Virus record (IMG/VR): IMGVR_UViG_3300023179_003680
Span: 1-47,764 of that record
Strand: one strand, 5' to 3'
Length of the DNA stretch: 47,764 nucleotides
From: a virus
The position numbers were made by a program, and so were the translations under genes. The notes beneath the pieces were generated by a model. That model searched no databases. It was given only the letters and a program-made list of their open reading frames with translations, and had not been told where the DNA came from. Shown here in pieces: positions 6,337 to 29,003 of the stretch. The first letter of the stretch is position 1. Each line of letters opens with the position of its first letter.

Positions 6337-7393
6337 TGAGGCTCTCCTTTTGTTGTTGTATGAGTTTTAGCCGCATATCATAATTATCCATATGTTGTAT
6401 TATGGTATAACAAAGTTTATGTCTATGTACAGTGTATCTTTCCCAATCTTCAGTCATTTCAGTAGCATATTTGAATACGTCAAAATACATTTCTTTATAA
6501 CTTAGTCGATCTGGTACCATGGGAATAGCATCAAGTACGCAGCCTTCATAACAACTAATACCTAATGTTTCCTGTAGATTTGCTGAAAATACTATTTTAG
6601 CCTGGGCCAATAGTTTATGATATTCTTGTTTGGTTAAGTTTTGTTCTTGGCAAACAACAAATTCATATTGAGGCAAGTGTGTGGCCAAGTCTTTAAAAAT
6701 ATCAACCTGTTTTTCTGGTGCTATACGATGTGGGAATAGGATTAGATCACGCTTTGGTGTATCTTTATATGGAGCCAATATAGCGTCCATATATTCCATG
6801 GGCCAACCACATCTTGTGATTTTGGGATACTTGCCTGCCAACACATCGTGAATATCTTCTTCAAACCATGGATTTTCTGTTTCCATGCCATCGTTAAGAA
6901 GATTACGCATAAACATTTCAATATGAAAGTTTGTGGCAAAGTAGTTATGATCTACAGCGTGGAAGAAACTCTTCTCAGCGTGTCTTACCCAAGGAGCATC
7001 TCCAATAAGCCTGCCCAAAAAGTCCTGCGGATCATAACTACCGGCGTGCCAAAGTGCGTGAATTTTTACAGGAATCTGTAATAGTTCACTCATATATTTT
7101 AAGTTTATGATCCCCGGATGCCAAGCATCAGTAAAAATAAAATGGTCGCCAGATGAGATGCGTCCCTCGCAAAATAATCTACTGACCTGTTCAACCTGTC
7201 TAGACTTATAGATATTAGTACCACCAAAGTTAAGAAAGGCACCAGGAGTAGTGGCTCGAGGAATATCTTCCGGACCAGAAATAACTTCAACTTCATGTCC
7301 TAGATTCCTTAGTTTTTCAGGAAGTGCCCATTTCCACTCGACGGTATATCGAGTGGAAACACTTTCCAAATCAATGAGAAAGATTCGGCTCAT
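6290..7393 (-). CDS. GT-B fold glycosyltransferase (GT4-like)
   Basis: 367 residues from ATG 7393; the frame runs on to a GTG at 7408. The C-terminal half has LILFPHRIAPEKQVDIFKDL and AKIVFSANLQETLGISCYEG, the retaining GT4-type nucleotide-sugar site where the E-x7-E region binds the donor. The N-terminal half would hold the acceptor. Phage enzymes of this kind glycosylate DNA bases, virion proteins or host surface sugars. With a 7-deazaguanine pathway nearby, DNA base glycosylation is possible, but nothing in the sequence fixes the acceptor. Confidence 0.85.
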   Translation of the reverse strand: MSRIFLIDLESVSTRYTVEWKWALPEKLRNLGHEVEVISGPEDIPRATTPGAFLNFGGTNIYKSRQVEQVSRLFCEGRISSGDHFIFTDAWHPGIINLKYMSELLQIPVKIHALWHAGSYDPQDFLGRLIGDAPWVRHAEKSFFHAVDHNYFATNFHIEMFMRNLLNDGMETENPWFEEDIHDVLAGKYPKITRCGWPMEYMDAILAPYKDTPKRDLILFPHRIAPEKQVDIFKDLATHLPQYEFVVCQEQNLTKQEYHKLLAQAKIVFSANLQETLGISCYEGCVLDAIPMVPDRLSYKEMYFDVFKYATEMTEDWERYTVHRHKLCYTIIQHMDNYDMRLKLIQQQKESLSERFFTAQGLYDNLN

Positions 7394-8026: not shown

Positions 8027-8581
8027 TTACTCAAAAAGTCTATTGAAAGGTTTGCTATTTCCGGACATGGTAAATAGTTTTTTTATTGCACTATTAGATA
8101 TTCTAAATTTATAATTATCCGTATCGTATATTTGTTCAAAATAGCCATATCCTTTAGTTGATATTTTTTCCTTATTTATAAGTTGCTGTTTAGAGCAGTC
8201 ATAAGCCTCTTTTATTTTATCTTGGATATAAGGATCAGTTAGATCATATGTTTCTGTCTTTTTAACAGTTTTATTATCGTGAGTAACGATAAGAACTGTT
8301 TGTGTTTTTTGATATATAGGTGAATCTTTATAATCTGTATTTTTAATATCTTCGACATTCATACTACCTATAGTAAAGGAAGCCTTTGAAGTTTCTAGTC
8401 GAGATTTAACTTCTGTATTATAGTCAATAAGATCGACAGGGCCGGCAGTATCAACACGAAACCCCTCTTTAGCTAAAAGAGTTTCTATGTGTCTACCAGC
8501 TGCTCCGTTATCAACAGTCATATCTGGTACATGCTCGTCAACAATATTAGTTTTAATCTTGGTTACTTTGATTTTTCTCAT
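8027..8581 (-). CDS. Putative PD-(D/E)xK nuclease
   Basis: 184 residues. NGAAGRHIETLLAKEGFRVD is followed by GPVDLIDYNTEVKSR: a helix with Glu33, then Asp50 and Glu57-x-Lys59 in the order E...D...ExK that defines restriction-endonuclease-like folds. Next comes a strand with ASFTIGSM and a region (QKTQTVLIVTHDN) that would be the following core strand. The C-terminal 60 residues are basic and could bind DNA. It sits inside the modification and sugar operon, so a nuclease that spares the modified phage DNA is attractive but inferred. ATGA overlap with the upstream gene. Confidence 0.6.
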   Translation of the reverse strand: MRKIKVTKIKTNIVDEHVPDMTVDNGAAGRHIETLLAKEGFRVDTAGPVDLIDYNTEVKSRLETSKASFTIGSMNVEDIKNTDYKDSPIYQKTQTVLIVTHDNKTVKKTETYDLTDPYIQDKIKEAYDCSKQQLINKEKISTKGYGYFEQIYDTDNYKFRISNSAIKKLFTMSGNSKPFNRLFE

Positions 8582-8775
8582 TTTAGTCCTTGGATAAGTA
8601 GGTCGATTTCAGTTTCGGTTAAAAATAAGTTGTAGGTACTAACATTAGTGACCTTGCCTTCTTTTAATGTTTCCTGTGCGAATTCAATAGTATACATGGT
8701 TTTAGGATTGTCACACTGTTTTTTGACTACTCTAATTCTGTAGTCTACTATATTTTTAATAATGAATTCTTTCAT
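8578..8775 (-). CDS. Hypothetical small protein
   Basis: 65 residues of alternating beta and polar sequence (KEFIIKNIVDYRIRVVKKQC, then TMYTIEFAQETL), ending in a short helix. No motif recognised. It is fixed in the operon by ATGA overlaps on both sides. Confidence 0.6.
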   Translation of the reverse strand: MKEFIIKNIVDYRIRVVKKQCDNPKTMYTIEFAQETLKEGKVTNVSTYNLFLTETEIDLLIQGLK

Positions 8776-17101: not shown

Positions 17102-18514
17102 TCAAAGATCAATAGGAATATTATTTCTAATCAGTTGAGCTCGAACTTGGGCTACTTTATCACCCAATAATTTTGATTCTGCTGGAGTAAATCCATTATC
17201 TGGATCTTTTAGTTTGGCCTGTATTTGATCTACCATATCAACTACTTTACGTCCACCTCGACCTGCTCGTCTTGCATCTGCTGCTGCCCCTGCTACATAT
17301 CCTCCTAGGCCAAGAGTTATACCAAAAGGAGTTAATTTTGCTGGTATACTTAGTGCATAGGCCAAACCACTAAGTGTACCTAATGCTGCTGAACCTAAAT
17401 CACCTTCTTCAAAATCTCGTTGAATTTGACGTCCTTGGTCAACCAAACCCCATAGACCAACTCCAGCCCCTATAAAAGGTGCTGCTTTTTTAGCAAAATT
17501 ACCAGCAGTCCTAGCAATATTGCCAGCAGTCTTAAGTCCACCCAATGCTTTTTGTCCAAAGCTTTGTCCTGCTGCTGCTGTGGTCGCTGCTGGTGCTGCT
17601 GTTGTCGCTGCTGGTGCTGCTGTTGTCGCTGCTGCTTCACCGATCCATGAATTATTCGTATATTCGTCTATATTTTGATCTGCTCTTTCAACTATTGATT
17701 TATATTTTTTTATTTGTTCAGTTGGGTCGTTTCTTTGGCTCTCTTTTAATTGTGCTTGTTTCACTAGTTTATCTAATAGCTCAGCCATAGCCTTTACTTC
17801 AGGTCTTACAGCATTAGGATCTGTTGGCTTAGTATCTGCTGGCTTAGTAGTATCTGCTGGATTAGGATCTTTTGGTTTTGGATTTGAACCACCGTCAGTA
17901 TCTGTTTCTGGTGGTGGTTTTGTTCGTTGACCACCTTTTATTGCCTTACCTGATCCTGGAGGAGCATCAGGCATCTTAGCTGCTTCTGGATGTTTAGCAG
18001 TGATCTCTGGAAATTTGGCCATAGCAGCTCTAGTATATTTGCCCATTAGCCCATCTACACCGTCATTTTCAAATGGACCAAGATCGGCACCTGCTGCCTT
18101 GAGATCTTGTTGTAGTGCTGCTACTTTTGGATCACCTGATGTAGGTTTATCAATAGCGTTATCTACTTTACGTACATCTGCTTGAGTGGCAGTTGTAGGT
18201 TGTTGTTTATTTTGTTGATCCATGGGACTGTCTGGAGGTACTATACCAGGAGTTTGTCTTGGAGCAGTATTGCCAGTTGATAGTTGTTGTGCTGCGGCCA
18301 TTAATCTTATTTCGGTTTCTTTATATAGATTAGTAGGAACAGGTTTACCATTTATTTCTACAGGCACACCACCACGACTTTTTACTTTAATATTATTTGG
18401 ATCTATGCCCATTTGTTGGGCTAGTTCTCTGGCTCTTTGTTTAGATTGTTGCTCATTAGGTACTGGTATAGTTTCCTCTTCAACTAATCTAATATATTGT
18501 CGTAAAATACTCAT
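17102..18514 (-). CDS. Probable internal virion protein with capsid-targeting N-terminus
   Basis: 470 residues from ATG 18514; eight more are possible from a TTG at 18538. The start MSILRQYIRLVEEETIP has an L-V-E site at residues 10-12, like T4 prohead-protease sites. A central Pro/Thr/Lys-rich linker carries KVAALQQDLKAAGADLGPFE followed by DGVDGLMGKYTRAAM, a peptidoglycan-binding-type fold. An Ala/Thr-rich spacer follows, then a Gly/Ala-rich hydrophobic segment (FIGAGVGLWGLVDQG, GITLGLGGYVAGAAADA) that might insert into membrane. The layout suggests an ejected protein acting at the cell envelope. Function is inferred. Confidence 0.68.
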   Translation of the reverse strand: MSILRQYIRLVEEETIPVPNEQQSKQRARELAQQMGIDPNNIKVKSRGGVPVEINGKPVPTNLYKETEIRLMAAAQQLSTGNTAPRQTPGIVPPDSPMDQQNKQQPTTATQADVRKVDNAIDKPTSGDPKVAALQQDLKAAGADLGPFENDGVDGLMGKYTRAAMAKFPEITAKHPEAAKMPDAPPGSGKAIKGGQRTKPPPETDTDGGSNPKPKDPNPADTTKPADTKPTDPNAVRPEVKAMAELLDKLVKQAQLKESQRNDPTEQIKKYKSIVERADQNIDEYTNNSWIGEAAATTAAPAATTAAPAATTAAAGQSFGQKALGGLKTAGNIARTAGNFAKKAAPFIGAGVGLWGLVDQGRQIQRDFEEGDLGSAALGTLSGLAYALSIPAKLTPFGITLGLGGYVAGAAADARRAGRGGRKVVDMVDQIQAKLKDPDNGFTPAESKLLGDKVAQVRAQLIRNNIPIDL

Positions 18515-18518
18515 AACG

Positions 18519-18526
18519 TATTTATT
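18519..18526 (-). promoter_or_regulatory. Late-promoter-like AATAAATA before 17102-18514 gene
   Basis: Minus strand AATAAATA matches NATAAATA but ends only four bases before the ATG at 18514, which would leave no leader and no ribosome site. It may be chance, or the mRNA may be leaderless. Confidence 0.3.
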
Positions 18527-18531
18527 AAAAT

Positions 18532-18560
18532 TTGACAATTTGTAGGATCGAAAGTATAAT
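18532..18560 (+). promoter_or_regulatory. Consensus sigma70 promoter for the plus-strand HExxH gene
   Basis: TTGACA at 18532-18537, exactly 17 bases, TATAAT at 18555-18560. Both hexamers are perfect. The predicted transcript starts about 25 bases before the ATG at 18591. Confidence 0.88.
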
Positions 18561-18590
18561 GTACATATGTAAACTTAATTCATTAAAGTC

Positions 18591-18908
18591 ATGAAAAAAT
18601 TACTTGTTGGTTTATTATTGGTTAGCCAAACTACATTTGCACAGGTTAATAAGGACGTTCCCACCTACGTTTTTGACATAGGACGTATGAATCGAAAGGT
18701 CACATTAAATATTATCACTGTTGAAGATCCAGTTAAATCTTGTGCTGAAGTTAGTAAAAAGTTTAATTTTGGTTGGAGTTTGCCCAGCGAAAGTTGTGCG
18801 TATTGGACTACAGACTTTCAAGAATGCACCATAATTCTAGCTAGGAGAACTACGATGCATCATATTGGTCACGAAATGTTACATTGTATGATTGGCAACT
18901 GGCATTAA
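18591..18908 (+). CDS. Secreted small HExxH zincin-like protein (moron candidate)
   Basis: 105 residues on the strand opposite to all its neighbours. MKKLLVGLLLVSQTTFA is a signal peptide with likely cleavage after Ala17, so the mature 88 residues should be periplasmic or secreted. The end is HHIGHEMLHCMIGNWH: His94-Glu95-x-x-His98 is the zinc-protease motif, with a further His105 as possible third ligand, one residue further than in metzincins. C51, C69, C79 and C99 could form disulfides. It has its own perfect sigma70 promoter and its stop overlaps the stop of the convergent gene. No typical ribosome site is visible. Proteolytic activity is not proven. Confidence 0.8.
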   Translation: MKKLLVGLLLVSQTTFAQVNKDVPTYVFDIGRMNRKVTLNIITVEDPVKSCAEVSKKFNFGWSLPSESCAYWTTDFQECTIILARRTTMHHIGHEMLHCMIGNWH

Positions 18909-20299
18909 ATTTTGATACTTCGAATCATATTTAGAATCCTATCATCCTCTGGTATATTGACCTTACCTTCTTTGACAGGAGTCCATTTTCTTGTTTTGGC
19001 ATCATAGTAACCCGGTCTACCCTGTGATGTTTGTATGGGCTCACCGTTAGGACCAGTTTTACCAGGAACTACATTTTGTCCACCATTAGTTGCTGGCTGA
19101 TTTGCCATAGCTTGAGCTACATTGGCATCACCTGTTCCAGGTTGAGGACCAGGAGGTACCACCATAGGAGCAGGAGATCCAATTGTAGTGGGCAATCCTG
19201 GTCCTGATGGATCATTATTAAAACCTTGAGCATGTCCGCCTGCGTTGGCAGGATTCCATTGAGTTGCTTTCTGAGCACCTGCTGTACCACCTGGTGGTTT
19301 AGCTCCAGGGTACTGTTTTGCACCGCCTAATTCTCCAGCATACTTAGCTGCAATCTCTGGCTTACGAGCCATAGCGTCTCTGGTCTTAGGACCAATTTTT
19401 CCATCTGGAGTTACACCTAATTCTCGCTGCATATTCATTATTGAAGCTATTTGATCTTTACTGCCAGCAGTAGCAGGCTGTGCTCTATTTAAAGCCTGCT
19501 GATCTGCTGCTGGACCTAGTGGACTATTTTGTCCACCAGTAGCTGCTGGTTCTTCAGGTGTTCCTGGAGGTTCTGAAATTAATGGACTAACCTTTGGAGG
19601 TAATGGAGTATAAGGATCGCCTGTCTCAGGATTTATACCTGGAGGTACTACCATGGGTGCAGGAGATCCAATTGTAGTGGGCAATCCTGGTCCTGATGGA
19701 TCATTATTAAAACCTTGAGCATGTCCGCCTGCGTTGGCAGGATTCCATTGATCACCAGTTTTTCGTTGGCCCTGTGGACTTGTCGTTTGTAAATTACCTC
19801 CGCTTGCCACTCGTACAGGCTGACCTGATCCATCACGCACAGGCTCTGCATTGGGATTTTTTCCATACCAAGGACCATCTGTTTCTTGATTCCAACCGTC
19901 TGGAGGTAACTCGCCACTAGCCTGTCTTGCTTTATAGTCTGCTGCATTTTGTCTAAAATAATTCCCTATTTTATCTGAAAATTCATTTACAGGTCGAATA
20001 TCGTCATAAACACCAAATTCTTTCATTAATGCTCTAGCAATACTGCCTTCCTTAGTTGGTTTATCTCTTGATCTAGCAGGCTTAAATCCTGGTTGCGCTC
20101 GTTTAGCAGATTGTTCAGCATCATCTGCTGCCTTGTACATGCCTTTTTCTTTGAACTGGTCAATATGTTTTTGCCAGTTCTTAATCTTTTCTGCATCAGT
20201 GCCGCCCTTATATTCAACTACTGGTGCTGCTGACTCAGAGATATATTTTTTACCTTTTTCAATAGCATCAATACGTGCTATAAGATTTTTCATATTCAT
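18905..20299 (-). CDS. Probable internal virion protein with PG-binding-like domain and repeats
   Basis: 464 residues. The start has a helix then KKYISESAAP, with I-S-E at residues 20-22 as the candidate prohead-protease site. An in-frame ATG two codons later is also possible. The middle is Pro/Gly/Asn-rich with two identical 92-base segments encoding a glycine-rich linker (QWNPANAGGHAQGFNNDPSG). Between them ASIMNMQRELGVTPDGKIGP and KTRDAMARKPEIAAKYA form a peptidoglycan-binding-type repeat similar to that in the neighbour 17102-18514. Shares the targeting plus PG-binding layout with that gene, so they may be paralogues. Confidence 0.68.
   Translation of the reverse strand: MNMKNLIARIDAIEKGKKYISESAAPVVEYKGGTDAEKIKNWQKHIDQFKEKGMYKAADDAEQSAKRAQPGFKPARSRDKPTKEGSIARALMKEFGVYDDIRPVNEFSDKIGNYFRQNAADYKARQASGELPPDGWNQETDGPWYGKNPNAEPVRDGSGQPVRVASGGNLQTTSPQGQRKTGDQWNPANAGGHAQGFNNDPSGPGLPTTIGSPAPMVVPPGINPETGDPYTPLPPKVSPLISEPPGTPEEPAATGGQNSPLGPAADQQALNRAQPATAGSKDQIASIMNMQRELGVTPDGKIGPKTRDAMARKPEIAAKYAGELGGAKQYPGAKPPGGTAGAQKATQWNPANAGGHAQGFNNDPSGPGLPTTIGSPAPMVVPPGPQPGTGDANVAQAMANQPATNGGQNVVPGKTGPNGEPIQTSQGRPGYYDAKTRKWTPVKEGKVNIPEDDRILNMIRSIKI
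19171..19262. repeat. 92-base direct repeat, copy 1
   Basis: Identical by eye to 19660-19751; the offset is 489 bases (163 codons), so recombination between copies would keep the reading frame. Lies inside the 18905-20299 gene. Confidence 0.9.
19660..19751. repeat. 92-base direct repeat, copy 2
   Basis: Second copy of the 92-base segment at 19171-19262. Both encode the same glycine-rich linker flanking a PG-binding-like domain. Confidence 0.9.
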
Positions 20300-20302
20300 A
20301 GT

Positions 20303-22678
20303 TTAGTCCTTATCGCTACCGTCTGCTTTTTTATGACTCTTGTAGCCTTTGTTTTTCATATGCCAAGCTAATGCCCAAGGATTCTTTTCCTTGCCATCTT
20401 TGGTCTTACCCTTGGTAAGTTCAGGGTGTTTTTTCATTGCCTTCACTGTGCCCTTAAAACCAGGTGGGCTTTTTTCCTGTAAACCTTTTTGTTGTGCTGC
20501 CATTATATCACGTTTAACATTTGCCATTGCCATAGTTTGTGCTATTTGATGACTAGTGGCACTATTTGGATTACGCAAATATTGTTGATAATATTTTTTA
20601 TAGTTAGGATGATTGACAATTTGATCTCCAGTCACACCACTCAATGTGCCTGACATTGTTTGTTGTTCCATCTTCACACAGTTATCCACCGTACGACGAC
20701 CTTTCTTCTTTGTGCCCATACGCTTGTAGCCTTTCCAGCAGGCCTTACCATCTACACCTTTTTGCTTTTCTTCAATCATACGCACGATGTTTTTTAGTTC
20801 TGGATAACTTACTGTTTCTAATGTATCTTTTTTAACACCACTTACTGATTCTAAAATATAGTTGATGTATAAGTTTTTTAGATTACTCTTAGCACCGCTG
20901 CTCAGTTGTAGGTAGTAACTATCAGGAAGTTTTAGATCACGCTGTATAGATTCATATAATAGTTTTGCTCTAGAATCTCCTAGTCCTTCCGCTATATCTT
21001 TCTTTTCTTTTTCTTCACGCTCTTTTTTCTGCTTGTCTAGTAAATCTTGTAATCTTTTAGCACAAGCATCCATATCATATCCGGCACGTTTCATAGAGTT
21101 TTTAAACTTCTGTTGTGCCGATACTTTTTGATATCTGGCTTCTGCCACACTTTTCTTAATTTCTCCTGTTTTAGGATTTTCGTGGTCACCTTTATTCGCA
21201 CCTGATTTATATACTTTTTTACCAGTGCTTGGACTTATATGATATTCACCTTTATTATCTTTACCAATAGATTTTACTTTATATTTTGCTCCACTGCCTT
21301 CCCCCATCGTAGGACGATCAATAGTCAGTGTGATAACATCGTCTTCAATATATCCTGTAGCAGATACTCTTGGCACACCTGGGCCTGGGCTGTATCTAGC
21401 ACGAAGGTCGCCTTGTAATACCACAGCATATTCTTTACCACCTAATACAACTGATGCCTTGGGAATGACATTTCCGCCTTGTTGAGCAAAACTAGGTCCA
21501 CTGCCTTCCCCCATCGTAGGACGATCAATAGTCAGTGTGATAACATCGTCTTCAATATATCCTGTAGCAGATACTCTTGGCACACCTGGGCCTGGGCTGT
21601 ATCTAGCACGAAGGTCGCCTTGTAATACCACAGCATATTCTTTACCACCTAATACAACTGATGCCTTGGGAATGACATTTCCGCCTTGTTGAGCAAAACT
21701 AGGAGACATAGTTCCATCTGGTTGAGGTGAGACTCTTTCTGTTACTTTTTTAGCTAATTTCTTTTGTGATTTTATTTTTCCTGCTGATTCTTTGGTAGTC
21801 TTTGTCGGAGGTAGAGTTGTAGGCTTAGGTGTTTGCGGGGTTGTTTGTGTTTTTGATTTTTTCTCTGCATCAACTTGTGCCTGTGTTTTCTTCCCAGAAA
21901 GTATGTCTACTATTTCATCGGGGGTATAGTCTTGTTCGTATATAGGCTTTTTATGTTTTTCCTTACCCTGTTTCTGATCTTTCTTTTTATCCCTATGTTT
22001 GCCCGCACCTGTTTGTGGGCGTAGTGGACCTTGTCTTGGTTTTTGTGGAACACGAGCATCTTCCATCATACGATCTACAATTCTGCGTACCTGCTCACTG
22101 CTTTCATAAGTTTCTTGAACACCACCAGCACCTATTTTTTGTAGGGCTCTTTGTGTAGCTGGACCTAACTCTTCCCAACGTAAACCATAGTATGTTTTTT
22201 CCTGACCATCCTGTATAACTGTGATATTAAAAGTATCAGGTACTTTATTACTGATTAAAATAAGTTTGCCAGTGTGTGTATCCCTAACACCTTTTTGACC
22301 ATTATGATCTACAGTGTCAAACCCATCACCTAAGTTTCCTGCAGGCTTTGGCCTTCTAGTTTTGTTAGCAAATGCGTTAGGTGCATTTGGATCCTTTGGG
22401 GCTCTCATTGGAGGTTCAGCAAGATGATCAGGTTCTGCTGCTGGTCGTATATAGTTTGGATTCTTAGACAACCAATCTAATGCGGCTTTGGCATCGTCGG
22501 CTGAAATCAGCTTTATTCCTGGAGCACCGCTTGCTGCCTTTTCCAAATAGCCAATGCCATAGTTAACATATGGAGGTGGAGTATTTGCTTGTTGCGCTGC
22601 CTGTTCAGGAACCTTATAGCTACCTGGGTCATCTATATTGACTCTTTCAACTATTCTAATATATTTTGCTAGACTCAC
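20303..22678 (-). CDS. Large virion-associated protein with targeting peptide, GTG start
   Basis: 791 residues from GTG 22678, overlapping the previous stop as GTGA. The start MSLAKYIRIVERVNIDD has I-V-E at residues 9-11. It is a mosaic: a Pro-rich N-terminus, a highly basic linker (KHRDKKKDQKQGKEKHKKPI), two identical 69-residue beta modules (KASVVLGGKEYAVVLQGDLR), then SPSTGKKVYKSGANKGDHEN. A helical region follows, then Lys-rich segments containing KACWKGYKRMGTKKKGRRTV and NPWALAWHMKNKGY, which recur in marine phage proteins by my recollection. The basic linkers would suit a DNA-associated internal protein. No enzymatic motif. Confidence 0.68.
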   Translation of the reverse strand: MSLAKYIRIVERVNIDDPGSYKVPEQAAQQANTPPPYVNYGIGYLEKAASGAPGIKLISADDAKAALDWLSKNPNYIRPAAEPDHLAEPPMRAPKDPNAPNAFANKTRRPKPAGNLGDGFDTVDHNGQKGVRDTHTGKLILISNKVPDTFNITVIQDGQEKTYYGLRWEELGPATQRALQKIGAGGVQETYESSEQVRRIVDRMMEDARVPQKPRQGPLRPQTGAGKHRDKKKDQKQGKEKHKKPIYEQDYTPDEIVDILSGKKTQAQVDAEKKSKTQTTPQTPKPTTLPPTKTTKESAGKIKSQKKLAKKVTERVSPQPDGTMSPSFAQQGGNVIPKASVVLGGKEYAVVLQGDLRARYSPGPGVPRVSATGYIEDDVITLTIDRPTMGEGSGPSFAQQGGNVIPKASVVLGGKEYAVVLQGDLRARYSPGPGVPRVSATGYIEDDVITLTIDRPTMGEGSGAKYKVKSIGKDNKGEYHISPSTGKKVYKSGANKGDHENPKTGEIKKSVAEARYQKVSAQQKFKNSMKRAGYDMDACAKRLQDLLDKQKKEREEKEKKDIAEGLGDSRAKLLYESIQRDLKLPDSYYLQLSSGAKSNLKNLYINYILESVSGVKKDTLETVSYPELKNIVRMIEEKQKGVDGKACWKGYKRMGTKKKGRRTVDNCVKMEQQTMSGTLSGVTGDQIVNHPNYKKYYQQYLRNPNSATSHQIAQTMAMANVKRDIMAAQQKGLQEKSPPGFKGTVKAMKKHPELTKGKTKDGKEKNPWALAWHMKNKGYKSHKKADGSDKD
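21290..21496. repeat. Perfect 207-base tandem repeat, unit 1
   Basis: Identical by eye to the adjacent 21497-21703; the unit is 69 codons and lies in frame inside the 20303-22678 gene. Confidence 0.92.
21497..21703. repeat. Perfect 207-base tandem repeat, unit 2
   Basis: Second unit of the head-to-tail duplication. The lack of differences implies a very recent event, active homogenisation, or an assembly duplication. Confidence 0.92.
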
Positions 22679-23952
22679 GATTTCAAACGTCCATCTTTTT
22701 CAGCACTCTTAAGCATGGCAGCACGATCACTATAACCCTTTACACCAGGCTTAATATCTTTTGCTGCTTTTTTTTCACCTGCTGTAGGATTCTTAACGTG
22801 CTTCATTGTGGTCTTGGCCTGATGACTGGCTTCACTCATACTGCCACATTCTTTTATACCATGTACTGGACAACTTTTACCTTTTGGGCTATGATTACAT
22901 TTGGCTGCTTCACTTACCTTCTTATCCTTGGCTGCTTTTTTCATTGGCTCTTTTTTGTTGCCATCCTTGTCCAAGTCGATATAATCTGGTTTGGCTGCTT
23001 CTTTAAATGGCTTACCTGACTTAGCAGCGGCCTTAGCACGACTACCCCATACTTCATCTTTAGGAGTTTCTACCTTGCCATCACCATCATAATCCTTTTT
23101 AGCCTTTTTTGACTCAGATGTTTTCTTACGTATGCTATCTACACTATAGCCTGTGCTCTTATGATCACGTCCAGCACGATCACGTACATCACCTTCGCTT
23201 TCACCCTCATCTGCATCATAGTGAACGTTCTTAGTCTTAGCACCATCTTTGTGCATTAGTTTTACGCTGTACTGTGATTTAGTACTGGCAGCAGCCTTTT
23301 TCTCTGCTGTACCAACACCTTTACCAGCCCTATGACCTGTAGCCTCAGATGTTTTTTGACGAATACTATCTACACTATAGCCTGTGCTCTTATGATCACG
23401 CCCAGCACGATCACGTACATCACCTTCGCTTTCACCCTCATCTGCATCATAGTGAACGTTCTTAGTCTTAGCACCATCCTTGTGAACTAGTTTTACACTG
23501 TATTGTTTTTTAGTGCTGGCAGCAGCCTTTTTCTCTGCTGTACCAACACCTTTACCAGCCCTATGACCTGTGGCTTCTTCTACTTTTTCATCCTTTTTCT
23601 TCATCTTTAGAGCCTGGGCTTTCTTAAGAGCTTTCATTTTCTCTTTAGCTTCCATTAGCTTGTGACCAAGAATTTTCTTTTCTTCAGGAGTGTACATATC
23701 ACTCATTTCAAGTTTTTGTCCATACTCGCTGAATTTCATTTCATATTCTAGATAATGATATACACTGGCCATATAGTCTGCGGCCTTGGTGATTTTAGCC
23801 TGTACCCAACCATCTAGTTGTGCATTATCTTCCATCATTTTAAATAGTTTTAACGCATATCTAGCCGTCTTATAAAGGTCGGCCTTGGCCATCTTACCTT
23901 CATCATCATGTTCTGGACTTGGTATTGTACCTTGTTGCATAATAGGATCCAT
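22675..23952 (-). CDS. Virion core or scaffold-like protein with repeats and EF-hand-like loops
   Basis: 425 residues. The N-terminal 110 residues are helical (KADLYKTARYALKLFKMMED, YHYLEYEMKFSEYGQKLE). Two 77-residue Lys/Asp-rich units follow (ATGHRAGKGVGTAEKKAAAS), then DYDGDGKVETPKDE and DLDKDGNKKEP, both like calcium-binding EF-hand loops, and a Cys/His cluster (KCNHSPKGKSCPVHGIKECG). Several segments end in x-x-E before Ala or Ser (VEE-A, TSE-A, FKE-A, VSE-A, MSE-A), which could be internal prohead-protease sites. Unlike its neighbours it lacks the N-terminal targeting pattern. A late promoter and GGAG precede it. A scaffold/core role is inferred. Confidence 0.65.
   Translation of the reverse strand: MDPIMQQGTIPSPEHDDEGKMAKADLYKTARYALKLFKMMEDNAQLDGWVQAKITKAADYMASVYHYLEYEMKFSEYGQKLEMSDMYTPEEKKILGHKLMEAKEKMKALKKAQALKMKKKDEKVEEATGHRAGKGVGTAEKKAAASTKKQYSVKLVHKDGAKTKNVHYDADEGESEGDVRDRAGRDHKSTGYSVDSIRQKTSEATGHRAGKGVGTAEKKAAASTKSQYSVKLMHKDGAKTKNVHYDADEGESEGDVRDRAGRDHKSTGYSVDSIRKKTSESKKAKKDYDGDGKVETPKDEVWGSRAKAAAKSGKPFKEAAKPDYIDLDKDGNKKEPMKKAAKDKKVSEAAKCNHSPKGKSCPVHGIKECGSMSEASHQAKTTMKHVKNPTAGEKKAAKDIKPGVKGYSDRAAMLKSAEKDGRLKS
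23113..23343. repeat. 231-base tandem repeat, unit B
   Basis: A 77-codon unit, nearly identical to 23344-23574 with a few scattered differences. It encodes one Lys/Asp-rich module starting ATGHRAGKGV. Confidence 0.85.
23344..23574. repeat. 231-base tandem repeat, unit A
   Basis: First 77-codon unit in translation order. Divergence from unit B shows this duplication is older than the perfect one at 21290-21703. Confidence 0.85.
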
Positions 23953-23972
23953 GTTCTACTCCGAATTTAGTA

Positions 23973-23980
23973 TATTTATC
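23973..23980 (-). promoter_or_regulatory. T4-type late promoter GATAAATA
   Basis: Minus strand GATAAATA overlapping the stop of the 23976-24203 gene, 20 bases before ATG 23952, with GGAG between. Position and leader length fit a late promoter for the 22675-23952 gene and the genes after it. Confidence 0.68.
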
Positions 23981-24203
23981 GTTTTAATATAGTTTGACCA
24001 AATAAGCTGATATCAGTATCTATAGCGTTTTTAGCTGTTCCGTTAGAGTTTTTTGGTGTTTCTACTCGTGGTGGTTTGGGCTTACGACCTTTACCATATT
24101 GTTTTATATTGCCTATAGCTATATGAGGATTAGGCACTGCTACTACATTTCCTGCACTTGTAGCACCTGCACTAGCCGTTTCAAATAGCTCTCTCAGTCT
24201 CAT
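23976..24203 (-). CDS. Small virion protein candidate with targeting peptide
   Basis: 75 residues. MRLRELFETASAG has L-F-E at residues 6-8, almost the same start as the HxGH enzyme two genes upstream in the transcript (MRLRQLFENLART). The rest is Ala/Pro/Lys-rich (GKGRKPKPPRVETPKNSNG), basic and likely unstructured, which would suit a DNA-neutralising internal peptide. The start abuts the upstream stop (TAAATG). Confidence 0.65.
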   Translation of the reverse strand: MRLRELFETASAGATSAGNVVAVPNPHIAIGNIKQYGKGRKPKPPRVETPKNSNGTAKNAIDTDISLFGQTILKR

Positions 24204-24581
24204 TTATATTCCGTATTGATTACGCTTGATCTTGGCCACAGGGCTAACTTTATTAGTGGTTTTAAGTTCAAGACTACGCATATCACCTTTGTTTAAATCT
24301 TTGTATTTGGCACCTACTGCTTTACTGGCCTTTTTGAACATGTCATTTTCAACCTCTGTATAAGGGTGTATGCTTTTACTTTTGCCAATCCAACTCTTAG
24401 CATCTATATCAGGAATAGTTTTACCATCAGTTGCAGCCATGGCTTGGCCTAACTTAAAAGCCACATAGTCACTATTCCAACGTTCGGCATCACTATAGAT
24501 ACTAACTCCTCTTGTTGGTTCTTTTTGTCTCTTGGTAAGTTTACCTTGTTTACGTTCGTTAATGATCTCACGTATTTTCAT
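24204..24581 (-). CDS. Small conserved virion protein candidate with targeting peptide
   Basis: 125 residues. MKIREIINERKQGKLTKRQK has I-N-E at residues 7-9. The body (DYVAFKLGQAMAATDGKTIP, then KSIHPYTEVENDMFKKASKA and KVSPVAKIKRNQYGI) forms a compact module that I associate with marine T4-like phages. Overlaps the upstream gene as ATGA. A packaged protein is inferred from the start peptide and context. Confidence 0.68.
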   Translation of the reverse strand: MKIREIINERKQGKLTKRQKEPTRGVSIYSDAERWNSDYVAFKLGQAMAATDGKTIPDIDAKSWIGKSKSIHPYTEVENDMFKKASKAVGAKYKDLNKGDMRSLELKTTNKVSPVAKIKRNQYGI

Positions 24582-24808
24582 CGCATACCCTTTCCAATAG
24601 GCTTCTCACCTGTGAGATATGGTAAGCTAAACCATAGTTGAAACCATTCTTTAGTACCTGGTTTAATATTATGTTTCTTTTGTAGTTCACCCTTCTCATT
24701 ACCACTTAAACTGATATTGATGCCAGAGTAGGGATCCACTGGGTCGTACTTAACATAGCCCTTAAACTCATTAATACCTGCTAACTTTTTTAGTTCGCTC
24801 AGTGTCAT
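24578..24808 (-). CDS. Small virion protein candidate with targeting peptide
   Basis: 76 residues. MTLSELKKLAGINEFKGYVK has I-N-E at residues 12-14 after an amphipathic helix. The body is short, with NIKPGTKEWFQLWFSLPYLT. No catalytic motif. ATGA overlaps with both neighbours place it between the HxGH enzyme and the 24204-24581 protein. Confidence 0.65.
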   Translation of the reverse strand: MTLSELKKLAGINEFKGYVKYDPVDPYSGINISLSGNEKGELQKKHNIKPGTKEWFQLWFSLPYLTGEKPIGKGMR

Positions 24809-26163
24809 TGCTTAAACATATCCTTCTGTCCAAATACGCTTTGGAATTGATTACCTAACATATTCTTTAACTTGTCTCTCTGATCTGCTCTAAGTATGAT
24901 TTGATTACCATCAAACTTAAATCCCATACTGCGTAGTTTAGGTAGTAGATCAGTTTTCAATAATGTGTACTTAAACGTATCTGGTTGTGCCACAGCGTGT
25001 CCACCCATCTGTGTATTAGGCTTACCTGGTATGGCCACACGATGTCTCTTACCATCTGGACCTACCACAAAGTGATCTACACCACTGGCCTTACGATCTG
25101 GTTCGCCTGGTTCTTTATCTACATATAGTTTATAGCGTTCATCGCCACCCTGTTCTATATAGTCTTTGATTTGATATAGTTCCGGGCCCTGTTCGCTACG
25201 CATTACACTGGGTGGGAATACAAACTGAGCCTTTTCAGCACCAATAAAGTCTACATCACGTAAACTATCTTCAAGTTCTTGTATAGCAGTGGTAGCATCT
25301 GTAAATAGGAAGTTTACTCTCAATGGACGAACTTTGCCACCCTTCTTATCCTTAATACCAACAGCATTGGCTTTTTGTACAACTTCTTGAGGACGGGTAC
25401 CAAAGTCTCCAACAACACGTACATTGCCTGTGTTGTCTAGTTTGAATACGATATATAGTGTGCCACTGGGCTGTTCTAATTCATATAGTCTCATTTCCTT
25501 AACCTTCTTTTTAGGTTTAGCAGCAGTCATCTGTGCCATACGTTCTTTAGCCTTACGCATAAGATCCATAACTGTATCGTCATCAATCTCTGGGCTCATA
25601 GCATCACGCCAAACTGCGAATTGTTCTCTTTCACTCTTGCTTGGATCAGTCAATACCTGACGCATTGGTGTAGCACGTGGTCCTTCTTCACCAGCACTGG
25701 GATCACCAGTCTCTTGTCGACTTATAACATCTAAACTGTCGAAGTTAAAGGGAACTTCACCTTTCTTATTAGGTTTACCATTATATTGTTTAAGATATTG
25801 GAAAGCAGTGACCTGATCAGCACCAACTACCACTGTGACATTATTATAACCTTGTTGATTAAGATTAGTTAGTACTCTTGTTAGATCTGGTAGTTCATCT
25901 GTAGCAGTTTGAAATATATGACTGCTATCAGGGAACACACGTTTATAGATGCTGAGTTTTTCTTCAGGTTGTAAAGGGTCATCAGGACCATATGTCCTAC
26001 TAACCACAAAGTAAGGATCACCTCCAATCTTATCGCTATAGGTTAGTACACTACTGGCCAACATCATATGACCTTTATGCCCCATACCTCTACCCCAACC
26101 TACTACAGCAGTGTTTTTTTCTCCGGTACGTGCCAAATTTTCAAATAGTTGTCTGAGCCTCAT
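24805..26163 (-). CDS. HxGH nucleotidylyltransferase-like protein with targeting peptide
   Basis: 452 residues. MRLRQLFENLARTGEKN has L-F-E at 6-8. Then AVVGWGRGMGHKGHMMLASS carries the H-x-G-H motif (His29, His32) of the cytidylyl/adenylyltransferase superfamily, NNVTVVVGADQVTAFQYLK the central V-V-G-x-D strand, and GPRATPMRQVL resembles the IS-x-T-x-x-R motif. Residues 1-190 would be the catalytic domain. The C-terminal 250 residues are a separate domain (LYIVFKLDNTGNVRVVGDFG) of unknown role. Substrates could be NMN, CTP-linked sugars or another nucleotide. The start suggests packaging in the head. Confidence 0.72.
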   Translation of the reverse strand: MRLRQLFENLARTGEKNTAVVGWGRGMGHKGHMMLASSVLTYSDKIGGDPYFVVSRTYGPDDPLQPEEKLSIYKRVFPDSSHIFQTATDELPDLTRVLTNLNQQGYNNVTVVVGADQVTAFQYLKQYNGKPNKKGEVPFNFDSLDVISRQETGDPSAGEEGPRATPMRQVLTDPSKSEREQFAVWRDAMSPEIDDDTVMDLMRKAKERMAQMTAAKPKKKVKEMRLYELEQPSGTLYIVFKLDNTGNVRVVGDFGTRPQEVVQKANAVGIKDKKGGKVRPLRVNFLFTDATTAIQELEDSLRDVDFIGAEKAQFVFPPSVMRSEQGPELYQIKDYIEQGGDERYKLYVDKEPGEPDRKASGVDHFVVGPDGKRHRVAIPGKPNTQMGGHAVAQPDTFKYTLLKTDLLPKLRSMGFKFDGNQIILRADQRDKLKNMLGNQFQSVFGQKDMFKQ

Positions 26164-28052
26164 TCGTCTTTCCTCGGGGCCCAGGCACCTTGATCTATGG
26201 CCTTAATAAATTGTCCTGGTAAATCATTTTGAAAAGTAGTACCAGGGTGTGCGCTGACATAGCCTTCTGGACGAGTTTGTCTAATACCACTGTGTGTGGC
26301 AGTGCTTAGATTTTGAATCATTTCCATTTTGGCCTTTGTCAATAGTTCTACAGCAGTTAATACAGCATCTAAACCAGCACGATCTTTTAATATTGTTTCG
26401 GCCTGTTTGGCACTGACATTACGACCTACCCATTCAATGAATTTTTGTTTAACACCTACAATACGTAGGTTTTGATTATAAAATTTATAAAGAATATCTC
26501 CTGGTTTACTTAATCCTGGCTTAGGGGCTAGGAAATTATTAATTAGATTAGCATTTTCTTTTATGAAGTTTTGTATGCTATCTAGATTATTATCAATAAA
26601 TTCAGGTGTTTGTTCTGCGTATGTAGTGCCTTGAACAATAGTATCAGGTGTTGAAAATTCTTCGGCATTAGGAAGTCTACCCTCATCACTGCTGCCTAAC
26701 TCTGGGTAATAGCCAGTAGCAGCTACCATTACCTTAGCACTTCTTATTCTACGGCCTAGGTCACTATTTTTACCAATATGGAAAGTAGTGATATTTGGAG
26801 TGAATTCATACTCCTGTGTCTGAGGATTTAGTATAGGTTTAGCTGGTGAACCATCGGGTTTCGTGCCAGGATAAAATAGTAGCCCACCCTCTATAAATCC
26901 ATCTTCTGGACTGGCCTGTTCAAAATAAGGCCAAAGACTGGATAGTTGTTTAGCATATTGACGACGTTGAGCAAGTTTGTCTGGATCTGCCTTGCCAGTA
27001 CCCATTAAAAATTTTTGTACTTCTTCCGCACTTCTTGGTATTACACTAGTACCATTAGCTAGTTCTGTTTTGCCACGTTTGATATAATCCCAAGCATTTT
27101 TAGGGATCATCATAAACATACCGTCTTGTTTACCCCAATATACTACAGGACTCCCATCCCATTTTAGTTCAATGTTGCCACCTTGACTACTCATATATCT
27201 CATACGTTCTACGGCATGTAGGCCACCTTGAGCACCATTAGTAAAAACTAAGTCCTCAATATGTTGATACTTACGTCCTATAGTTGGTGCTGCTGCTTCA
27301 AAAAACTTTTGTTCTGGGCCTTTTAATGGAGCACTTTTCCAACTTTGTCCACCAGCAGCCAAACTATAAATTTTTTGTCGTGTAGCAGCATCAGGTAGTG
27401 CTGCCATAATACTTTCCACACTGCCTAAACTACGGGCACTAGCATTTGGGCCAATTAGATAACGTGCTATTTCATCTAAGTCAGTGCTGATCAAATCTGC
27501 TTTTTTGCCTTGTTCATTTCTAGCATATAGACCCTCGTCTGGACTCCATAGCAAGTTTTGACTACTGGCCAATGCGTTCATGATCATTTGTTTATGTACA
27601 CCTTTATATGAGCTACCTTTTGGTATTTCATGTACATGGAACTTGTGTACATTAGCAGCATTGCGTACTACTTTGACGTCTACTTGATGACAAGTTGATC
27701 CAAATGGTAATCTAACGTGTACTGTGACTGCTATGCGTTTGGTTTCTAACCCTTTGCTGTTTAGATACTTTTCTAACTCTATGCGTATCTTTTTAGGATC
27801 TTCTTCATTGAATAACTGAGCAGCAGTGTCCAAGTCCACCATAACATCTAAATCACCACTCATAACACCTGGTGTTGGTGTTGCTCCGCTGCCTATTCTA
27901 TATACTTTGAGTCCTGTGCCTCTAAGATATCTTTCAAGTTGTGCTTCAATTTGAGGAGCCTGACTTTGATCGAATGGTTCACAATCGTCCCAAATATTGC
28001 CACCCTCCATCAAAGGAGTACGTACCTTAGAGAACAACTCACGCAGCATCAT
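26160..28052 (-). CDS. Pol-beta-type nucleotidyltransferase joined to KxDG ligase-like domain, with targeting peptide
   Basis: 630 residues. MMLRELFSKVRTPLMEGG has L-M-E at residues 14-16. The first domain has Gly-Ser at 54-55 then SGDLDVMVDLD (Asp67, Asp69) and CHQVDVKVV (Asp125), the three-Asp pattern of polymerase-beta nucleotidyltransferases. The second has IELKWDGSPVVYWG (Lys297, Asp299, Gly300), like motif I of ATP-dependent ligases and capping enzymes, and EDGFIEGGLLFY (Glu388), like motif IV. The last 130 residues are helical. Transfer of a nucleotide and nucleic-acid joining are plausible; neither substrate is known. ATGA overlap downstream; TAAATGATG upstream. Confidence 0.68.
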   Translation of the reverse strand: MMLRELFSKVRTPLMEGGNIWDDCEPFDQSQAPQIEAQLERYLRGTGLKVYRIGSGATPTPGVMSGDLDVMVDLDTAAQLFNEEDPKKIRIELEKYLNSKGLETKRIAVTVHVRLPFGSTCHQVDVKVVRNAANVHKFHVHEIPKGSSYKGVHKQMIMNALASSQNLLWSPDEGLYARNEQGKKADLISTDLDEIARYLIGPNASARSLGSVESIMAALPDAATRQKIYSLAAGGQSWKSAPLKGPEQKFFEAAAPTIGRKYQHIEDLVFTNGAQGGLHAVERMRYMSSQGGNIELKWDGSPVVYWGKQDGMFMMIPKNAWDYIKRGKTELANGTSVIPRSAEEVQKFLMGTGKADPDKLAQRRQYAKQLSSLWPYFEQASPEDGFIEGGLLFYPGTKPDGSPAKPILNPQTQEYEFTPNITTFHIGKNSDLGRRIRSAKVMVAATGYYPELGSSDEGRLPNAEEFSTPDTIVQGTTYAEQTPEFIDNNLDSIQNFIKENANLINNFLAPKPGLSKPGDILYKFYNQNLRIVGVKQKFIEWVGRNVSAKQAETILKDRAGLDAVLTAVELLTKAKMEMIQNLSTATHSGIRQTRPEGYVSAHPGTTFQNDLPGQFIKAIDQGAWAPRKDE

Positions 28053-28435
28053 TTATAAAGACCGTCCTTCATATTTTTTACTTCAGTATCGTATATATGA
28101 TGTGCTACTTGTTCTGTAAATTCTTCTTCTAAAGTATCATCCAATTCTTTAATAGGAAATTCTTTTCTATAGCTTTCGTAGGCTTTTTCAATAACTTTTT
28201 TGAATACTCTGTGAGTAAACTCACCACCGCTTTCTAATTGTGCCTTACAGGTTTTTAATACTGGAAAGAAATGACGACGATAAAAATCATCATTGTTATG
28301 CATAAAAAATACTAGATCTTCTGCTAGATCAAATTCGTATGCCCCCATTGCATCCTTAATAGTCTTTTTAGGACCACTATGTAGCATATCTTCAATTGGG
28401 AGTTCTTTGTCACCAAACATTTCAAATAGTTTCAT
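28049..28435 (-). CDS. Small conserved acidic helical protein, targeting peptide possible
   Basis: 128 residues from ATG 28435, one base after the upstream stop; the frame to 28492 reads back into the upstream gene. MKLFEMFGDKELPIEDML resembles the leucine-phenylalanine starts of its neighbours, with P-I-E at residues 13-15. The remainder is helical and acidic (MGAYEFDLAEDLVFFMHNND, KVIEKAYESYRKEFPIKELD). No motif recognised. Confidence 0.68.
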   Translation of the reverse strand: MKLFEMFGDKELPIEDMLHSGPKKTIKDAMGAYEFDLAEDLVFFMHNNDDFYRRHFFPVLKTCKAQLESGGEFTHRVFKKVIEKAYESYRKEFPIKELDDTLEEEFTEQVAHHIYDTEVKNMKDGLYK

Positions 28436-28436
28436 A

Positions 28437-29003
28437 TCACCAAGCCCTACAACTCCAATAACGAGCTTTCCATTTTGGACCAGGATTGGCACAATTATGT
28501 CTTGCTCTAAAATTTTTACGTCTACTAGGTATGTGACGTTTAATACTTAATTCTTTATCACCAAAGTTTACTTTAACAATTTTACCATTTGGTTTACGCA
28601 CATATACTTTAGACTTTTTAACATCACCCTTCATGGGTTTACCTATAGGAACATTCTTACCTTGATGCATGGCTTCTGCTGCTCCCCCTACCAGTTTACC
28701 CTTAGGGTTAGTAGGCCCAGGACTGCGTAATTGTCCAGCCTGACCTATTTTATGTTTGCCTAATCCAGCAAATGGCCAACTGGATTCGTCTAATTCTTCA
28801 AAAAATGTCATTCCAATTTCTTGTAATAAGGATAATGCTAAGTTATCAAGCTCAACTAATATGACATCTTCAGATACTAGTAAAACATCCGTTTCAATAG
28901 CATCTCTCTCATTGAGATCAAAATAGAAGCCATCTCCAGGATGTATATCTAAATCCTCGGACTCTACTTGTTCTACATATTCTAATATACTTTTATTAGT
29001 CAT
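28437..29003 (-). CDS. Conserved phage protein with Cys/Arg-rich C-terminal module
   Basis: 188 residues from ATG 29003; the frame extends to a GTG at 29015. The acidic N-terminus (ILEYVEQVESEDLDIHPGDG) contains L-E and Y-V-E sites. The C-terminal module SKVYVRKPNGKIVKVNFGDK, then KNFRARHNCANPGPKWKARY ending in WSCRAW, is a basic Cys/Arg-rich domain that I have seen at the ends of marine phage proteins. First gene after a GATAAATA late promoter. Confidence 0.72.
   Translation of the reverse strand: MTNKSILEYVEQVESEDLDIHPGDGFYFDLNERDAIETDVLLVSEDVILVELDNLALSLLQEIGMTFFEELDESSWPFAGLGKHKIGQAGQLRSPGPTNPKGKLVGGAAEAMHQGKNVPIGKPMKGDVKKSKVYVRKPNGKIVKVNFGDKELSIKRHIPSRRKNFRARHNCANPGPKWKARYWSCRAW

Follow-up and report, generated by a model that had tools for sequence, protein, structure and literature searches.

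The window analysed here is the whole of a virus record of 47,764 bases. Between positions 17102 and 29003 it contains a run of eleven minus-strand genes (A to K), and all but one of these open with a short peptide, or tag, that ends in a hydrophobic residue, any residue and a glutamate. The DNA polymerase of the virus has its nearest counterparts in T4-superfamily jumbo phages, with 47–50% identity to Sinorhizobium phage Phosso and Agrobacterium phage Atu_ph07 and about 44% to the Escherichia 121Q/PBECO4 group. A megablast search of the window against phage records gave no match, and the close relatives are uncultured contigs only, the first of these at most 66.6 kb in length and later ones of 399,796 bases and 161 kb. 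The 399,796-base relative, G009, served as the reference genome for features beyond the window.

Genes A (17102–18514, 470 amino acids) and B (18905–20299, 464 amino acids) start with the tags MSILRQYIRLVE (18479–18514) and MNMKNLIARIDAIEKGKKYISE (20234–20299), respectively. Both contain a weak PG-binding-like stretch, a label given in an earlier sequence-only reading of the locus, and the matches are sub-threshold (17–19 bits against cut-offs of 23–24.6). A small plus-strand gene (18591–18908) with a secretion-signal-like start, MKKLLVGLLLVSQTTFAQ, interrupts the island; it has a HEMLH metal-binding-like motif, and signal-like genes are found at the equivalent place in G009 and a second relative, G001. 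Gene C (20303–22678, 791 amino acids) has a GTG start, the tag (M)SLAKYIRIVE (22646–22678), an exact 69-residue internal tandem repeat (from residues 326 and 395) and a C-terminal basic module, CWKGYKxxGTKKKG, that is common to several PHROG families. Gene D (22675–23952, 425 amino acids) is without an N-terminal tag. It has a conserved MAKADLYK domain and two repeats with xxE/A sequences at their bounds (a slash marks the bond after the glutamate); these xSEA repeats were left uncounted as additional sites because P3 is often T.

Gene E (23976–24203, 75 amino acids) carries the tag MRLRELFE (24180–24203), followed by TASAGATSAGNVV (24141–24179). Gene F (24204–24581, 125 amino acids) starts with MKIREIINE (24555–24581) and gene G (24578–24808, 76 amino acids) with MTLSELKKLAGINE (24767–24808). 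Gene H (24805–26163, 452 amino acids) encodes a cytidylyl/adenylyltransferase-like protein and has the tag MRLRQLFE (26140–26163). Gene I (26160–28052, 630 amino acids) opens with the tag MMLRELFSKVRTPLME (residues 1–16, 28005–28052), which is followed by a predicted Pol-beta-fold nucleotidyltransferase domain, a linker and a DUF6267 domain, with a predicted cleavage site, FFE/A, between both domains (residues 250–253, 27294–27305). The tag of gene J (28049–28435, 128 amino acids), MKLFEMFGDKELPIE at 28391–28435, is weak in the window, and so is that of gene K (28437–29003, 188 amino acids), MTNKSILEYVE at 28971–29003. The C-terminal basic module of gene K (28437–28676; phrog_7595, HVA1-like) is also found in Pelagibacter, Roseobacter and Methylophilales phages at 45–61% identity. 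Several of the island proteins are basic, of low complexity and repeat-bearing. In two relatives, an untagged ferritin/Dps-like gene (KYHLAxKxAFASEF...NFHWN) lies within the island (G007, 8153–8590; G004, 6840–7289; oriented coordinates).

The sequence-only reading had listed ten tag peptides in ten adjacent genes. All ten are found at the gene starts, but the genes are not strictly adjacent, as the untagged gene D and the plus-strand gene break the series. Most tags are variants of one formula: MRIKELLE/MRIQELLE in gene J, MRAKEF[IL]xE and MKIREIINE in F, MRLRELFE/MKIRELLE in E, MRLRQLFE in H and.LxxLKKLAGINE in G. MSILRQYIRLVE, MSLAKYIRIVE and MKTLREYINIVE belong to a second subtype, M....[YF]I..[VIL]xE, which resembles the T4 peptide MKTYQEFIAE. 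A putative propeptide of about 7–20 residues that ends at [LI]xE is present in the run, weak in the window for J and K and absent in D. In genes I, J, F, H, G and E, dozens of relatives retain the tag class, whereas for A, B and K it rests on few homologs and the support is thin; the gene A tag is retained in one close homolog. Of the two sites that had been considered weaker, the one in gene J is strengthened by distant homologs that start with MRIKELLEG and MRIQELLEN, while the one in gene K is seen in close relatives only. In many homologs of gene H, the site is LRE at residue 5 instead of LFE at residue 8, which counts against the reading preferred below.

A comparison with other genes of the same genome had been set as a test beforehand, with equal frequency elsewhere as the outcome that would speak against the tags. 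The motif [LI]xE with its glutamate at residues 6–16 is present in 8 of the 11 island genes and in 7 of the 53 other window genes (Fisher p=1.7e-4); the corresponding figures in G009 are 6/9 and 53/367 (p=7e-4). At residues 5–16, the density of [LIV]xE is 10.6% in island genes, compared with 1.7% in other genes and 1.0% in the bodies of the island proteins. Because the motif is enriched in both the window and G009, and site density is also higher, the equal-frequency outcome does not apply. A chance background does exist, with 13–19% of the other window genes matching a loose form of the motif. Tag-like starts elsewhere in G009 are at 163677, 264939, 333802 and 387842 (MATFKDYLAE, MKTLREYINIVE, MITIKQFMEV and MKIDEIITE). 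Also outside the island, at 319931–321226 of G009 (L122/L123), is a gene for a 431-residue protein-kinase-like protein (GSGHFGKVY loop) with the start MIMKITDIISE, possibly a further tagged enzyme.

Gene I could be aligned over 82 homologs. All 82 start with M.LRE[LM][FY], which is followed by a linker of variable length and then by [LIV]xE directly ahead of the folded domain; tag and [LIV]xE are thus kept in 82/82 despite many linker insertions and deletions. The motif is present in 100% of the distinct N-terminal linkers, as against 28% when these are shuffled. At fixed residues of the tag, L3 is encoded by six and R4 by four synonymous codons, and therefore selection acts on the peptide and not on the DNA. 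The junction between the two domains also has a hydrophobic-x-Glu sequence in all 82 homologs (FFE, INE, LLE, LQE, VNE and others). In 72 of these the junction reads [LIFV]xE[A/S]; in the remaining ten, [VMIL]xE precedes E, N or D, and these acidic or Asn P1′ residues count against the reading preferred below. Among 51 distinct junction linkers the motif is found in 100%, and in 23% after shuffling. An AlphaFold model of gene I (42 sequences, mean pLDDT 83) has pLDDT values below 50 at residues 1–17, the tag, and 252–261, the junction, and low values elsewhere only at 601–603 and the C-terminus. Sites inside proteins, of which this junction is one, are the strongest evidence.

The N-terminal domain of gene I has the motif GS..DLD, with G54, S55, D67 and D69 invariant, and its model matches Pol lambda in Foldseek (E=1.3e-6), and also Pol mu and beta by fold. 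By motif and modelled fold, it is a predicted Pol-beta-fold (family X) nucleotidyltransferase. The second domain is DUF6267 (Pfam E=3.4e-14), with an invariant KWDG that is like the nucleotide-attachment motif of ligases. The top fold matches of this domain are mostly ligases but are non-significant (E>=0.2), and an ATP-dependent ligase is no more than a lead. For gene H there is a match to phage cytidyltransferases (phrog_3041, E=1.7e-23), and it may be placed in that family, with a Pfam match that is under its cut-off.

Gene fusions in the relatives provide further sites. In four contigs (G003, G004, G005 and L008), genes I, H and F form one protein of 984–999 residues, with the joints IQE or LQE/NINRTGEG, and MRAKEFVAE or VVE/. 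The tag of gene F is thus preserved inside where F is fused to H. Similarly, 26 homologs contain the gene E module at the C-terminal end of a longer protein, and in 26/26 the module is preceded by [LIVM]xE, with Ser/Thr after the Glu. A tblastn search with gene E against phages gave no match.

A search for a gp21 homologue had been proposed with the sequence-only reading. With the PF03420 profile, no protease was found in the window or in the first relatives, all of which are fragments, and the window is without a capsid gene too. The profile does detect gp21 homologs in two relatives, G009 (91575–92201, E=3.5e-26) and G010 (E=1.5e-26), beside the portal, gp22 and gp23 genes. The order in the G009 head block is portal, a small gene, an acidic core-like protein, gp21, gp22 and gp23, where gp21 alone is assigned by profile match and the rest by order and resemblance to known T4-like proteins. 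The small gene adjoining the portal starts with MILRELF. The major capsid protein of G009 has the sequence RKYLAE/TASAGTTSAGNVATLN (in short, LAE/TASAGTTSAGNV), at a position which we take, from established knowledge of gp23, to correspond to the T4 gp23 cleavage site. Gene E of the window has LFE/TASAGATSAGNVVAVPN (in short, LFE/TASAGATSAGNV), which from the Glu on is identical to the G009 capsid protein at 12 of 13 residues. The tag site therefore resembles the predicted cleavage site of the relative's capsid protein, and gene E bears, besides its tag, a copy of the arm predicted for the mature capsid protein. The G009 copies of gene E and of the capsid protein use differing codons.

A position matrix trained on the tags of genes I, J, E, F and H only was applied to T4. 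The nine T4 open reading frames taken as gp21 substrates are all among the 38 highest-ranking of 277 (Mann–Whitney p=3.5e-8), with part of the signal coming from the requirement of a site. These nine are gp21, gp22, gp23, gp24, gp68, Alt, a 61-residue frame that shares only the first residues of Alt, and two internal proteins (IPs). In Atu_ph07, the same matrix picks out a gene array (CDS 53–63) whose tags read M[RK]W.QL[TN]E. It sits within a cluster, CDS 31–76, with 29 virion proteins identified by mass spectrometry (PMC6102473), and this support is positional only. Enrichment of tags in the virion clusters was rejected as evidence; it is non-significant by family (p=0.15) and vanishes when paralogs are collapsed, because most array members are paralogs of a single family. 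The array (L032:39484–50000 and L174:505–1593) has 11 paralogous tandem genes, with 14 in the genome. Its members carry an hYRG[M/I] motif that recalls ADP-ribosyltransferases, for which Pfam gave no confirmation, and one 778-residue member has an additional Zeta-toxin/AAA_33 kinase domain. A T4-like late promoter, TATAAATA, was uninformative; it occurs 27 times genome-wide compared with 86 in the shuffle, i.e. it is rarer, and none is directly at the island.

The closest known parallel is phage T4, where cleavage takes place after L/I-x-E and the first ten residues of IPIII target the protein (PMC9026906). T4 IPI, IPII, IPIII and Alt, together with gp21, share with the island a short amphipathic propeptide that ends in [LI]xE and precedes unrelated bodies, and a gp21-type S77 protease is present in two relatives of the window virus. 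The starts of T4 gp24 (MAKINELLRE) and of the IPs (MKTYQEFIAE) resemble MKIREIINE and MKTLREYINIVE. In contrast to T4, the protein bodies of the island are not related to the IPs, some ten tagged genes lie together in one place, sites are also found at domain and fusion joints, and one gene copies the arm of the mature capsid protein. Phage P1 DarB has a related N-terminal signal (PMC9024508). In SPN3US and phiKZ, ejection proteins are processed at A-x-E or S-x-E sites; head proteins are cut after Glu by a gp21-related protease and a large load is ejected (PMC5694885, PMC10052503), much as predicted for the island. Their propeptides, however, are mostly long (111–254 residues in SPN3US), whereas the putative ones of the island have 8–22 residues and [LIV]xE, with L, I, V, M or F at P3; the A/S-x-E motif and long propeptides of the phiKZ type are absent from the island. 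The array of Atu_ph07 is like the island in its matrix-detected tags and its position in a virion cluster defined by mass spectrometry (PMC6102473), but its bodies belong to a different family (hYRG motif and one Zeta-toxin-like kinase fusion). Atu_ph07 is absent from the phage matches of gene I, and for gene H it is absent from the best 40 of 281 matches and from the organism tally.

Polyvalent proteins (PMC5512222) offer the idea of multidomain capsid-packaged effectors, which include Pol-beta-family nucleotidyltransferases; the island differs in that its modules are split by prohead-protease-type sites and are alternately fused or separate genes. In the cyanophages P-HM1 and P-RSM6, genes for DUF6267 and a cytidyltransferase are neighbours, as in the island, and a P-RSM6 gene adjoining DUF6267 starts with MITFHVFITE/A. 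Unlike gene I, the cyanophage DUF6267 protein stands alone, without a tag and without a nucleotidyltransferase domain. The literature found on capsid-targeting sequences in cyanophages and jumbo phages deals with T4, P1, SPN3US and polyvalent proteins and nowhere describes the island; a search for a virion proteome from this clade found none.

The run is probably a packet of head-packed, head-trimmed proteins, several of them nucleotide-transfer enzymes, since the front-end tags end in a head-protease site and the same sites recur at domain joints. We put at roughly 0.8 the probability that it is a cargo island of the T4 capsid-targeting/gp21 type, in which the T4 strategy has been expanded to a multi-gene, partly polyprotein cargo with Pol-beta-fold nucleotidyltransferase/DUF6267 and cytidylyltransferase-like proteins. 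The island would then encode head-cargo proteins of a T4-superfamily jumbo phage. An amphipathic N-terminal propeptide of 8–22 residues would dock each precursor in the prohead core, and a gp21-type (S77) protease would cut after the Glu of [L/I/V]xE and remove the tag. Linkers of multidomain members would also be cut, and separate proteins freed inside the head from a cargo polyprotein. The freed nucleotidyltransferase, the DUF6267 protein with its ligase-like KWDG and the cytidylyl/adenylyltransferase-like protein would remain associated with the DNA and pass into the next host. Targeting, cleavage, presence in the virion, ejection and enzyme function in this phage are what we infer from these comparisons.

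The earlier proposal of a removable signal gains from the presence of [LIVMF]xE at domain junctions, fused-gene junctions and the capsid maturation position, and from the PF03420 protease of the two relatives. That of a shared address label is supported by near-identical tags on unrelated bodies, selection at the protein level, likeness to T4 gp21 substrates and the position of the Atu_ph07 array in a cluster of virion proteins (PMC6102473); the tagged proteins may also be injected. The internal sites, the gene fusions, the capsid-protein look-alike and the one untagged gene go beyond that reading.

The tags might be genuine prohead-protease sites on proteins that serve as scaffold or core and are digested and cleared without delivery. 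T4 core proteins gp22 and gp67 are cut to multiple fragments (PMC9026906), the small MILRELF gene is located in the head block, and the basic, low-complexity and repeat-bearing nature of several island proteins would suit such a role. We consider this unlikely, as genes I and H encode large, folded and conserved proteins of enzyme-like character, the catalytic-type motifs GS..DLD and KWDG are invariant, and the conserved sites of gene I fall in disordered joints. Amphipathic N-terminal peptides can also bind membranes or partners, and with cleavage here being a prediction, the tags could be addresses for a membrane, a phage-made compartment or a partner complex, with [LI]xE incidental. An N-terminal sorting signal, however, could not act at internal sites, and the Glu motif recurs where domains or fused genes meet as well as at the capsid cleavage position; this alternative is therefore disfavoured and very improbable. 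Chance or a bias at translation starts, such as E-rich N-termini and overlapping gene starts, might account for the tags, as the loose motif is also matched by some of the other window genes. This has already been refuted by the enrichment (p about 1e-4 to 1e-3), conservation in 82/82 homologs, the shuffle control and the wide codon variation at fixed residues, and is the least probable of all.

With the T4-type cargo island as the preferred reading, fused genes that retain the cut site at the joint suggest maturation of a cargo polyprotein inside the head. A more specific and tentative version is that the fused enzymes are matured by the prohead protease in the capsid as a head-delivered cargo polyprotein, that a ready-made nucleic-acid end-repair or nucleotide-transfer kit is injected, and that gene E anchors in the shell via its copy of the capsid arm. 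Delivery, along with the genome, of a kit for nucleotide transfer or DNA/RNA end processing is a possible function, and only a lead. Most jumbo-phage head proteins are without a known function or a predictive sequence rule. The rule of tag plus cut site, checked over about 80 related contigs and on T4 and Atu_ph07, may make head cargo predictable from T4-superfamily sequences, including enzymes that are likely delivered, and the tags themselves are candidate portable signals for loading chosen proteins into large phage heads.
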